The notes beneath the pieces were generated by a model, which saw only the letters and a program-made list of their open reading frames with translations, did not search any database and had not been told where the DNA came from. A stretch of 64,000 bases of DNA from Flavobacterium faecale (GTDB lineage Bacteria > Bacteroidota > Bacteroidia > Flavobacteriales > Flavobacteriaceae), in the NCBI RefSeq assembly GCF_003076455.1, contig NZ_CP020918.1, forward strand, positions 1 to 64,000, given 5' to 3'. Each line of letters starts with the position of its first letter. Position 1 is the stretch's first letter. Shown here in pieces: positions 2,235 to 52,602 of this stretch. The position numbers and the translations under genes are program-made.

Positions 2235-3305
2235 ATGAAAAACAAAACTTTTCTAGTAGCATTATTAGCAACATCATTTCAGTTGCTGTCGTGTTCAAAA
2301 GATTCTCCAGAGCAACCTCCTGCAGTAGTTGCACCAAGTCCGACACCCACCCCAACACCTACACCTACACCAGAAGTAACAGATTACAAACTAATCGCTG
2401 TACCTGCTGATGCTGGAACAGGAAAAAAATGGGAATTTCAAACTGACTTTTCAGATGATTTTGACTACACCTATACGCCATCTACAACCAAAACAACTTT
2501 TGGTAACGGAAAATGGACCAACTGGTATCATAATGCATGGAACGGACCAGGATTAACCAAATGGACATATGAAAATGTTACTATTGAGAATGGTATCCTA
2601 AAACTAATCACTACGCGTGTAAGCGGTGAAACAAAAAATTATGATTACAGCGGTAACACCATCACAGGCAAAGCAACACGCCTAGGTGCTGTTGTCTCCA
2701 ACAAGCAAGTTGTCTATCCAGTATATATAGAGAGTAGAATTAAAATTGCAAACAGTGTCAATACCTCTGGAGCATGGATGTTGAGTCCAGATGACACACA
2801 AGAAATCGATTTCATGGAAGCTTGGGGTGGTAAACAAGCTAGAAATAACGTAAGTGGCGGAAGGCAATTTTCGAAAACAATTCACTTAAGCCACCACGTA
2901 TTTATTCGTACTCCTTTTCAAGATTACCAACCTGGCGATGTGTCTACTTGGTTTACAGATAGCAAAGTAGGTGATTGGTCAGACGCCTACCATCGTTATG
3001 GAGTATTCTGGAAGAGCCCTACCGAACTAGAATACTATATCGATGGCGTTTTGGTTCGTTCTACAAATAGCTTGGACAATGTAGGAACCAAAGATGGAAT
3101 GGACCCAAAAAACTTCACTTCGCCTACAAAAGAAGCAGCAACTAGAACAGGCTTAAGCAAACCAATGGACATTTTGTTCACCATGGAAGATCAAAACTGG
3201 AGAGCCGGAATTGGTTGCACACCTACTGATGAAGAAATTAAAGATACCGACGGCCATACAATGAAAATTGACTGGATTCGAATATTCAAACCGGTTACCA
3301 AATAA
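2235..3305 (+). CDS. Glycoside hydrolase family 16 lipoprotein (agarase/porphyranase/laminarinase type)
   Basis: This is a probable surface endo-glycosidase acting on a beta-linked galactan or glucan. I chose the ATG at 2235 because it begins a clean lipoprotein signal peptide ending LLSC; an in-frame ATG at 2190 would add 15 residues in front of it. After the lipid-anchored Cys comes a Pro-Thr repeat linker (alternating TP, about residues 33-48), as is common in tethered Bacteroidota glycosidases. The GH16 catalytic signature EIDFME is at about 190-195, supplying nucleophile and acid/base Glu. The surrounding SGAWMLSPDD and EAWGG text resembles agar/porphyran-acting subfamilies, but the substrate cannot be fixed by eye. 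No SusC/SusD pair is nearby, so it is a single-gene locus with its own promoter box and terminator. Confidence 0.88.
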   Translation: MKNKTFLVALLATSFQLLSCSKDSPEQPPAVVAPSPTPTPTPTPTPEVTDYKLIAVPADAGTGKKWEFQTDFSDDFDYTYTPSTTKTTFGNGKWTNWYHNAWNGPGLTKWTYENVTIENGILKLITTRVSGETKNYDYSGNTITGKATRLGAVVSNKQVVYPVYIESRIKIANSVNTSGAWMLSPDDTQEIDFMEAWGGKQARNNVSGGRQFSKTIHLSHHVFIRTPFQDYQPGDVSTWFTDSKVGDWSDAYHRYGVFWKSPTELEYYIDGVLVRSTNSLDNVGTKDGMDPKNFTSPTKEAATRTGLSKPMDILFTMEDQNWRAGIGCTPTDEEIKDTDGHTMKIDWIRIFKPVTK

Positions 3306-34007: not shown

Positions 34008-34562
34008 TTAATCTACAATAAAACTATTTTCAGCCACTTTCCCTACAACACCAACAAAATGCTTTTTCAACAAAGGCATGTCTGCATCAATATCTCCTGT
34101 AGGTAAGAACGGCTCTCCTATATTCACTTCTTTTTTACCAAAATCAAATGCAATGGGTACAATAGGTACACCGGCTTTTAATGCGATATAATAAAATCCA
34201 GTCTTTAGCTCTGTTACCCTTTTCCTGGTACCTTCCGGTGCTATAGCAAGTCTAAACTCCTTTTTCTTTTTAAATATCGCTGCAATAGCATCTACTTTAT
34301 TCAATCCTCCTGCCCTATCTAATGGTTCACCACCCATGTACTTGAAATAATATCCCAATGGAAAACGAAACAGTTCCTTTTTGGCCATAAAATGCATATC
34401 TAGTCCTGTAATTCCTCTTGTAAATATTCCTAAGTAAAAATCATGAGCGCTTGTGTGCGGGATCACCATCAAAATGCACTTTTGCACTTTTGCATGATCA
34501 CCTCCCACAATTTTCCAACCCATTATTCGAAAGAAAATGAATTTGTAAATTAACTTTTTCAT
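34008..34562 (-). CDS. PlsC-like acyltransferase (lysophospholipid acyltransferase family)
   Basis: Probably esterifies a lysophospholipid or other polar acceptor at the inner membrane. The HX4D motif is HTSAHD (36-41), and the phosphate-binding APEGTRKR is at about 110-117. The 184-aa length fits the short Bacteroidota form, without an obvious membrane anchor beyond the hydrophobic N-terminus. The promoter -7 element ends only 4 bp before the ATG, so the mRNA may be leaderless. Confidence 0.9.
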   Translation of the reverse strand: MKKLIYKFIFFRIMGWKIVGGDHAKVQKCILMVIPHTSAHDFYLGIFTRGITGLDMHFMAKKELFRFPLGYYFKYMGGEPLDRAGGLNKVDAIAAIFKKKKEFRLAIAPEGTRKRVTELKTGFYYIALKAGVPIVPIAFDFGKKEVNIGEPFLPTGDIDADMPLLKKHFVGVVGKVAENSFIVD

Positions 34563-50375: not shown

Positions 50376-51029
50376 CTATTTTTTCTTTCTAAAACTAAAG
50401 TAATACGTTACTTCAAAACCTAAATTGTATTTGGTATCGACATCTATCTCTTTTGTTTTTTTAACAACCTTATTAAAATTAATATTATCCATAAAAACAG
50501 ACAATAAAATTGAATCAAACGATTCTGACCATAATTTTCCAATAACCCCCAAATTCAAACCAAAAGAACGACTAACTCCTTTACGAATTTCTTCTGAGCG
50601 AATAATCTTTGAACCTTGATACAGTATAACCCTATCGGTTGCCTTTATTTCGGCATAATTATATTTTGGTTTTACCGCCAAATACCAATAATCATCTTCA
50701 TCAATAGAAACAGAAAAATTGGGTGTAATACTCCAATTAAATGCTTGCAAGTTTGTAAAAACATCTTTTGAACGTAAAGAAGGATCTATAATATCATAAG
50801 TAGTATTATTCTGTAAAGACCCAAAAAAGAATCTCATTTCTATCTCTGGCTTGATAAAACCCTCCAAATTATATTGAACACCTGTAGAAAGATTTAAATA
50901 ACCATTATTATCAAAAGACGTATTAATGTTTTGTCCCGCTCCTAAAAAAGCCAATACTTTTTGTGCGTTCACACAAAAAGTATTGACAATAACTATAAAT
51001 AATACTTTACTTATTTTAAAATAACCCAT
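50376..51029 (-). CDS. Hypothetical outer-membrane-type protein
   Basis: 217 aa with a signal peptide (about 1-22, ending CVNAQ) and alternating polar/aromatic strands to the C-terminus, such as YLNLSTGVQYNLEGF, YWYLAVKPKYNY and NLGFEVTYYFSF. This suggests a small outer-membrane beta-barrel or lipocalin-like protein. No family is recognised. It overlaps the end of the upstream gene by 19 bp, so the two are co-translated. A strong terminator follows. Confidence 0.7.
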   Translation of the reverse strand: MGYFKISKVLFIVIVNTFCVNAQKVLAFLGAGQNINTSFDNNGYLNLSTGVQYNLEGFIKPEIEMRFFFGSLQNNTTYDIIDPSLRSKDVFTNLQAFNWSITPNFSVSIDEDDYWYLAVKPKYNYAEIKATDRVILYQGSKIIRSEEIRKGVSRSFGLNLGVIGKLWSESFDSILLSVFMDNINFNKVVKKTKEIDVDTKYNLGFEVTYYFSFRKKK

Positions 51030-51553
51030 GCAACTGTAAAATTCAATATTGGAACAATACTATTATTTTGGTTTTTACTAATATTATAACCAAGCCCAGC
51101 GTTAGCCCCTAGATTCACACCTGATTTATATGTTTTTTGAAAACCCCAAACAGCTCCAGCCGTAAACCCGTCTAAAGTACTAATATGAAAATCATCATTA
51201 ATCGGTTTTCCATAATAACTAATAGACGGCGCTACAAAACCGCCAGAATTTCCAGTTATGGATTTACCTTTATCCAAACGTTTATCCAAATTATAATAAA
51301 AACGATATTGTCCTCTAACAAAAGGAACTGCCAAAACCTTCAACTGGCCATTGTTATCATTAACCCCTCCTAAAGATAAATTCATATCAACATTAAAGGT
51401 CGAATTGCTACCAACACCCCATTCATAGCCTAAACCCGGGGATAATATGTTAACTTTAAATAAACGTTCACTAACCTTTACCGTTTGCGCTATTCCAAGC
51501 TTTGCAAACAAAAAAACAATTGTATAAATTACTAACTTCTTCATTATTTTCAT
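51011..51553 (-). CDS. Hypothetical outer-membrane beta-barrel-like protein
   Basis: 180 aa with a signal peptide (about 1-22, ending LGIAQ) and amphipathic strands: LSPGLGYEWGVGSNSTFNVDM, VRGQYRFYYNLDKR and VNLGANAGLGYNISKN. It resembles small Bacteroidota outer-membrane barrel proteins. Its function is unknown. The start may be the ATG at 51553 or MKK three codons later. It overlaps the next gene by 19 bp. Confidence 0.7.
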   Translation of the reverse strand: MKIMKKLVIYTIVFLFAKLGIAQTVKVSERLFKVNILSPGLGYEWGVGSNSTFNVDMNLSLGGVNDNNGQLKVLAVPFVRGQYRFYYNLDKRLDKGKSITGNSGGFVAPSISYYGKPINDDFHISTLDGFTAGAVWGFQKTYKSGVNLGANAGLGYNISKNQNNSIVPILNFTVAWVILK

Positions 51554-51902: not shown

Positions 51903-51941
51903 AAAAAAAATAGCATTGAAGTATTAAACTTCAATGCTATT
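51903..51941 (-). terminator. Terminator of rpsU
   Basis: The stem AATAGCATTGAAGT / ACTTCAATGCTATT has a short loop and a minus-strand T8 tract. Confidence 0.92.
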
Positions 51942-51966
51942 CTTATTTATTTCTATCAAGAAACTA

Positions 51967-52161
51967 CTAACTCTCTAAACCATCTTTCATGTTTTGGATG
52001 TAAGCTGCTTTTTGAATTTTGATTCTATTTTTCACAGAAGGCTTGATAAAAGCTTGACGAGCTCTTAATTGACGCACTGTTCCAGTTTTATCAAATTTTC
52101 TTTTATAGCGCTTTAGTGCTCTATCGATATTTTCTCCGTCTTTAATTGGTATAATTAACAT
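51967..52161 (-). CDS. rpsU: Ribosomal protein bS21
   Basis: 64 aa, very basic; a small-subunit protein next to the 16S 3' end. It reads MLIIPIKDGENIDRALKRYK then RQLRARQAFIKPSVKNR, typical of Bacteroidota bS21. In Flavobacterium johnsoniae bS21 helps hide the anti-Shine-Dalgarno sequence, and the rpsU mRNA uses a strong Shine-Dalgarno so that ribosomes lacking bS21 make more of it. The same arrangement is visible here: a 10-base SD, a consensus promoter and a short leader. It is monocistronic with its own terminator. Confidence 0.97.
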   Translation of the reverse strand: MLIIPIKDGENIDRALKRYKRKFDKTGTVRQLRARQAFIKPSVKNRIKIQKAAYIQNMKDGLES

Positions 52162-52169
52162 AATTTTGA

Positions 52170-52179
52170 CACCCCCTTT
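52170..52179 (-). promoter_or_regulatory. Strong Shine-Dalgarno sequence of rpsU
   Basis: The minus strand AAAGGGGGTG lies 8 nt before the ATG and pairs over 10 bases with CACCTCCTTT of the 16S 3' end (one G-U). No comparable SD was noticed before the other genes in this window. Confidence 0.85.
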
Positions 52180-52190
52180 CGTTAAGTGTG

Positions 52191-52220
52191 CAAAGGTAGT
52201 CTTTATTTTGAATTGACCAA
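52191..52220 (-). promoter_or_regulatory. Consensus promoter of rpsU
   Basis: On the minus strand TTG (52218-52220), 19 bp, then TACCTTTG (52191-52198). The predicted leader is about 25 nt. Confidence 0.8.
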
Positions 52221-52425
52221 CTCCAAGTTTAAAAATTTTTTAATCTAGTTCAAAACCGGTAAACACCTCCATCATCAAAAGCCTCCAACGTATTCAAAGA
52301 CAATTATTTTTAGAACTACAAAAAAACATTATTGATTAAAATACCATTCTCCAATAACAAATAAATTCCGGCCATCATTCACATGTAGTTAAACGGGATC
52401 AACCTATGTTTACTGGTTTGCGTGA

Positions 52426-52521
52426 GGGATCGCAGCGTTATCCTTTTGTGTGGTCCCATTTTTTTTTGGGACGACACAAAAGATATAGCGTAGAGCCCGA
52501 CCCGTGTTTTTCTCACGGGTC
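52426..52521. repeat. Long palindromic repeat, copy A
   Basis: GATCGCAGCGTTATCCTTTTGTG is mirrored by CACAAAAGATATAGCG around a GGTCCCA / TGGGAC hairpin. A second hairpin GACCCGTG / CACGGGTC (52499-52521) follows. The core is shared with copy B at 60822-60896. The rest of the 52221-52602 gap holds nothing else I can name. Confidence 0.75.
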
Positions 52522-52602
52522 ACGCCCACATAAAAGGAGCTTAAACAAGAAAAGGAGCTAAATCCAATGATTTAACTCCTTTTACTTGATATCTTTTGTG
52601 GA

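Follow-up and report, generated by a model that had tools for sequence, protein, structure and literature searches.

The closest described system is the bS21 autoregulation of Flavobacterium johnsoniae, in which ribosomes lacking bS21 expose the anti-Shine-Dalgarno (anti-SD) sequence and favor rpsU mRNA by way of its extended Shine-Dalgarno (SD) (McNutt et al., 2023, PMC9976891). As reported in the main text of that paper, the 16S tail is hidden by bS21, bS18 and bS6, and the circuit was demonstrated with reporters and purified ribosomes and by mutating and depleting bS21; approximately 80% of Flavobacteriales qualify for rpsU autoregulation under the authors' criteria. In Chryseobacterium relatives, an alternative anti-SD, UCUCA, is described as covarying with the rpsU SD (Jha et al., 2021, as quoted in PMC9976891 and PMC8710568). 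bS21 is also encoded by phages, for which Chen et al. inferred Bacteroidetes hosts (Chen et al., 2022, PMC9723584).

Here, we describe the rpsU locus of Flavobacterium faecale, located in a window of 64,000 nucleotides. The locus matches the circuit of McNutt et al., so that our core finding adds one more example of an already known circuit, as the initial annotation correctly stated of the mechanism. The features on which the comparison is built are as follows.

51906..51944, minus strand: terminator-like hairpin 3' of rpsU, 17 pairs followed by a T-run (consensus match only)
51967..52161, minus strand: rpsU, ribosomal protein bS21, 64 aa (open reading frame with ATG at 52161-52159; Tyr54 present)
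52162..52186, minus strand: predicted 25-nt leader, CTTAAC-SD-CAAAATT, from an inferred transcription start
52169..52180, minus strand: extended SD GAAAGGGGGTGT, 7-nt spacer to ATG, complementary to the 16S 3' tail over 12 contiguous bases, one of them in a G.U
52191..52198, minus strand: -7 promoter element of Bacteroidota type, TACCTTTG, with TANNTTTG in 80/80 relatives
52218..52220, minus strand: possible -33 element TTG, 19 nt ahead of TACCTTTG, poorly conserved
52550..52583, minus strand: terminator-like hairpin upstream of rpsU, between it and a putative acyl-CoA dehydrogenase gene (consensus match only)

The product belongs to the Pfam family Ribosomal_S21 (PF01165; E 3.1e-18, 65.7 bits against a cut-off of 27), its residue 54 is the tail-stacking tyrosine, and rpsU is the single bS21 match in the 4.62-Mb genome in a search at E up to 10. 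Its nearest counterpart among the matches listed is the bS21 of Flavobacterium algicola, at 100% identity. Because terminator-like hairpins flank rpsU on its own strand, the gene is probably transcribed alone, as a monocistronic unit; four terminator-like sites were found on both strands of the 1-kb region, compared with 0.6 expected from shuffles. The gene upstream is one that we take, from its sequence, to encode an acyl-CoA dehydrogenase. Directly upstream of rpsU (52395-52560, minus strand) lies a dispersed repeat with 24 genome matches listed, namely the window copy and 23 others that share 69-88% identity with parts of it. Downstream, two extra open reading frames (50376-51553, minus strand) separate rpsU from xerC in this genome; in 79 of 80 relatives xerC is found in the fetched downstream flank, with the match mostly starting approximately 40-190 bases past rpsU.

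Read along the minus strand from 52220 to 52159, the start region consists of TTG, N19, TACCTTTG, CACACTTAAC, GAAAGGGGGTGT, CAAAATT and ATG. The initial annotation had delineated AAAGGGGGTG with an 8-nt spacer ahead of the ATG and a leader of approximately 25 nt, both of which are as described, and it had proposed pairing with 10 bases of the 16S 3' end. The helix in fact spans 12 contiguous bases, with a duplex energy of -20.5 kcal/mol, 11 of the bases being in Watson-Crick pairs and one in a G.U pair that the annotation did not mention, opposite the U of CCUCC. All five 16S copies found in the genome end in GGAACACCTCCTTTCT and thus carry an intact CCUCC. An altered anti-SD matching GGGGG was considered and rejected: a first tail pattern, GGATCACC, was unmatched and the actual tails read GGAACACCTCC, so that GGGGG makes one G.U rather than compensating for an altered 16S. 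The observation as a whole is confirmed, in a form slightly stronger than first described. The annotated consensus promoter fared less evenly: TANNTTTG occurs within 50 nt upstream of the rpsU start in 80/80 relatives, whereas support for a -33 TTG is weak, with TTG-N17-22-TANNTTTG matched in just 24/80. A small 5' hairpin hiding the SD was also considered, but the leader is predicted to fold weakly at best and these folds do not decide the matter.

How isolated is this SD? When 46 open reading frames of at least 100 aa in the window were scored at their first ATG (or at the frame start if there was no ATG in the first 30 codons), none reached -6 kcal/mol, compared with -20.5 for rpsU and with 1/46 mock regions at -6, in keeping with the earlier statement that neighboring genes lack SDs. 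When each frame is scored at its best candidate start within the first 40 codons, 11/46 reach -6 and 2/46 reach -12, the best at -14.5, and the window contrast therefore depends on the choice of start. Near 34487 (minus strand) there is a possible alternative start with GGAGGTGATC upstream, at -14.5; the first ATG of that open reading frame, at 34562, scores -1.5.

Genome-wide, GAAAGGAGGTGT with at most one mismatch has 20 sites, five of which are 16S tails. Of the other 15, rpsU alone is followed at 2-12 nt by a start that opens a frame of more than 23 codons. The looser pattern AAAGGRGGT-N3-10-ATG gives 11 matches, compared with 16 for the reversed control pattern. Five of the 11 open frames of more than 60 codons, namely rpsU (64 codons) and four others that are probably internal to genes, since their frame is open for 163-457 codons upstream. 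Neither the 12-mer nor the AAAGGRGGT search revealed an equal SD at a convincing gene start. The other gene often credited with an SD in Bacteroidota, that for bS18, lacks one here (-0.7 kcal/mol); it is the sole other ribosomal protein gene scored. The -20.5 kcal/mol of rpsU, computed with software unlike that of the paper, compares with a published criterion of < -13 kcal/mol for the rpsU SD, which by that definition is also to be the strongest of any ribosomal protein gene.

Taken together, the parts that were examined are present: a single bS21, Tyr54, CCUCC tails, an isolated extended SD, a bS18 gene without an SD and a probably monocistronic unit with a promoter element. They support the feedback switch that the initial annotation read from this region, and we propose that the translation of rpsU is very probably controlled by feedback from the composition of the ribosome. 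At low bS21 levels, 30S subunits that lack the protein would have a free 16S 3' tail, which would pair over 12 bases with the rpsU leader and drive bS21 synthesis. When bS21 is plentiful, it would fill the bS21/bS18/bS6 pocket, where Tyr54 would help to hold the tail, and with the anti-SD hidden, rpsU would be translated at a lower rate. Because other genes would be read independently of an SD, the switch would act mainly on rpsU. That the switch operates in this strain is a reading of its sequence, modeled on what others have shown in F. johnsoniae.

The likeness to F. johnsoniae, as that system is presented by McNutt et al. (PMC9976891), extends to the extended SD (9-13 pairs there), the 25-nt leader, the gene standing alone, Tyr54, the intact CCUCC anti-SD and the lack of SDs on the other genes examined. 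The two differ in that the F. johnsoniae system has been demonstrated functionally, whereas the F. faecale circuit is predicted from sequence. In the present genome, the G.U falls on the U of CCUCC, which gives the GGGGG form. As in the Chryseobacterium type described in PMC9976891, the rpsU leader is complementary to the genome's own 16S tail, but the core of that tail is here the canonical CCUCC.

Extended SDs of this kind are common in Flavobacterium. The comparison across relatives suggested by the initial annotation shows it in 81/81 leaders (the window and the 80 relatives best by protein identity of at least 563 confirmed), pairing with this genome's tail at -19.2 to -22.0 kcal/mol. At eleven core helix positions, all variation keeps the pairing in 80 of the 81, and the remaining leader has the same core shifted by one base; the helix end base at -8 is looser, being missing in 6/80 leaders in register. 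In a survey of the genus, the leader pattern was matched in 331 of 398 genomes and went without a match in 67; the rows used below are those with 0 mismatches among the matches listed and so are filtered for an intact SD. In the family, 111 of 219 genomes matched a pattern that fixes the spacer, so that misses do not mean absence. The precise architecture, presented in the initial annotation as the observation, is therefore not new: the extended SD is common in the genus and a predicted 25-nt native leader was already used in the F. johnsoniae work (PMC9976891).

Within this conserved helix, one feature moves. Exactly one G.U is present in 78 of the 81 leaders and none in 3, the usual forms being GAGAGGAGGTG and GAAAGGGGGTG. 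We added 62 genomes of the genus to the sample, all taken from 0-mismatch rows and 60 of them fetched, and built a tree from the downstream xerC gene (143 sequences, giving 139 XerC rows, 132 of them distinct); this is a quick tree with long branches and not a species tree. Among the 132 distinct rows, 120 have one G.U (85 GAGAGGAGGTG, 34 GAAAGGGGGTG and 1 GAAGGGAGGTG), 11 have none and 1 has two. Among these Flavobacterium leaders, which are filtered for an intact SD, the G.U moves between -17 and -13, and changes at the two sites are correlated; the XerC tree requires a minimum of 21 state changes (19 at -17, 12 at -13). In matched independent pairs on supported branches, a mean of 5.8 of 11 differ oppositely, 0 the same way and 5.2 are unchanged (median p 0.031, range 0.016-0.125); starting from the other site, the pairs give a mean of 6.5 opposite differences among 8 and none in the same sense (median p 0.016, range 0.016-0.125). 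The 80-row tree agrees in direction (median p 0.031). A dependent two-site model, with the GAAGGG row counted as A at both sites, is preferred over an independent one (LRT 56.7, df 4, p 1.4e-11; 54.7 on the FastTree topology), and the largest value in 60 simulations under independence was 13.0, such that 0/60 were as large as 56.7. In the fitted model, the state with two G.U pairs is left very quickly, and the state with no G.U at -17/-13 is tolerated, with a stationary share of 0.11.

Thermodynamic tuning was rejected as a full account of the single wobble. Nearest-neighbor energies are nearly equal for the one-wobble helices (-21.5/-20.5) and the perfect and two-wobble helices (-21.4/-20.6), with the favored helices not ranked above the others, and so they do not explain the keeping of one G.U. 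For the family, counts were made on the 30 of the 111 matches that came as loci: one G.U is present in 24 (GAGAGGAGGT in 22), none in 5 and two in 1; the GGGGG form is absent from these 30 and the -17/-13 switch is seen in the genus sample only. It seems that pairing, and not sequence, is conserved in the rpsU leader, and the way in which in-helix changes compensate each other supports selection on pairing. The one-G.U pattern was not met in the literature searched (titles and starts of abstracts), and the main text of PMC9976891 makes no mention of wobble, G-U or GU pairs.

These results bear on two other ways of reading the leader. The strong SD, the 7-nt spacer and the conserved promoter element would also suit a mere constitutive enhancer that gives rpsU high initiation with no feedback. 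We consider this very unlikely in view of the F. johnsoniae results in PMC9976891, where wild-type ribosomes are reported not to recognize SDs, where an rpsU'-gfp reporter rises by approximately 3-fold to more than 4-fold on bS21 mutation or depletion while SD-less reporters are nearly unchanged, and where an SD is absent from tuf, whose upstream adenines are typical of efficiently translated genes in that organism. It is extremely improbable, in our estimation, that the purine run arose by chance or serves at the DNA level, as part of the promoter or initially transcribed sequence, with 16S pairing incidental. Such a reading draws on the looseness of the last helix base and on bases outside the helix that are also near-invariant (CTTAAC ahead of it, and A-5, A-3 and TT ahead of the ATG), but it does not account for pairing kept at eleven core positions in 80/81 leaders, for the compensation between -17 and -13 on the tree, or for the covariation with a changed anti-SD that has been published for Chryseobacterium relatives (as quoted in PMC9976891). 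Feedback through the rRNA-mRNA helix is the reading that we retain.

Phage-encoded bS21 offers a second comparison. As described by Chen et al. (PMC9723584), the phage proteins share the family and a tail-contacting aromatic residue, and their genes lie beside head genes. A second scan of viral contigs retained 80 of 84 loci, 34 of them distinct by leader and protein (L118-L120 of the first scan are not bS21 by translation and were dropped). The tail-blocking tyrosine, in a KAxY-like motif, is kept in 34/34, and portal and head-maturation-protease genes adjoin bS21 in all three loci tested (L177, L185 and L207). In contrast to the rpsU described here, the 34 distinct viral loci examined are without an SD: with the canonical tail none of their leaders is stronger than -3.1 kcal/mol, and with an approximate tail of the Chryseobacterium type none is stronger than -2.7. 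Other genes on 16 phage bS21 loci also lack SDs (0/85 at -6, compared with 6/85 mock regions), so the absence is the phage default and not a special loss. In five phage records inspected (of 12), the bS21 leaders score -0.5, -5.1, -2.4, -0.1 and -12.1; the last is the exception, LR756501 (L312, LR756501.1), a 735-kb huge phage with a AAAGGAGG SD ahead of bS21 and a neighboring gene at -9.8.

One contig filed as viral, L097, carries a host-like rpsU (2941-3000) whose leader fits the alternative anti-SD type and which stands outside the 34. The idea that it is a phage bS21 gene whose SD has eroded was rejected, as its leader AAAATGAGATGT pairs with the approximate Chryseobacterium-type tail at -14.4; L097 is probably host or provirus DNA. 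The motif TATTTAT occurs within 40 nt upstream of 33 of the 34 distinct phage bS21 genes (L174-L244 loci), upstream of 43/78 other open reading frames of at least 140 aa in 16 loci, compared with 2% of sampled 40-mers; it is perhaps a phage late promoter.

From these leaders, we suggest that phages may make bS21 outside the host feedback, and that filling of the pocket by the phage protein would lower host rpsU. A full takeover, in which SD-less phage bS21 is translated by ribosomes with their full protein complement, blocks the anti-SD, evades the loop, switches host rpsU off and progressively replaces host bS21, is a more speculative and rather unlikely extension. McNutt et al. speculate on phage bS21 and counter-defense; the passage concerned does not take up the SD of the phage gene (PMC9976891), and escape of phage bS21 from host feedback was not met by title or abstract start in the literature searched.

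Importantly, these data document the sequence signature of a specialized bacterial ribosome in another Flavobacterium genome. The correlated one-G.U switch and the SD-less phage bS21 genes may be new additions to what is known of this circuit. The coordinated shifting of the G.U between two sites suggests selection on the rRNA-mRNA helix itself, independent of the known anti-SD covariation, and the contrast with SD-less phage bS21 leads to a concrete prediction on phage takeover of ribosomes in Bacteroidota. If that prediction is true, it is through the single-gene SD circuit of the host that such phages would convert the ribosome pool.
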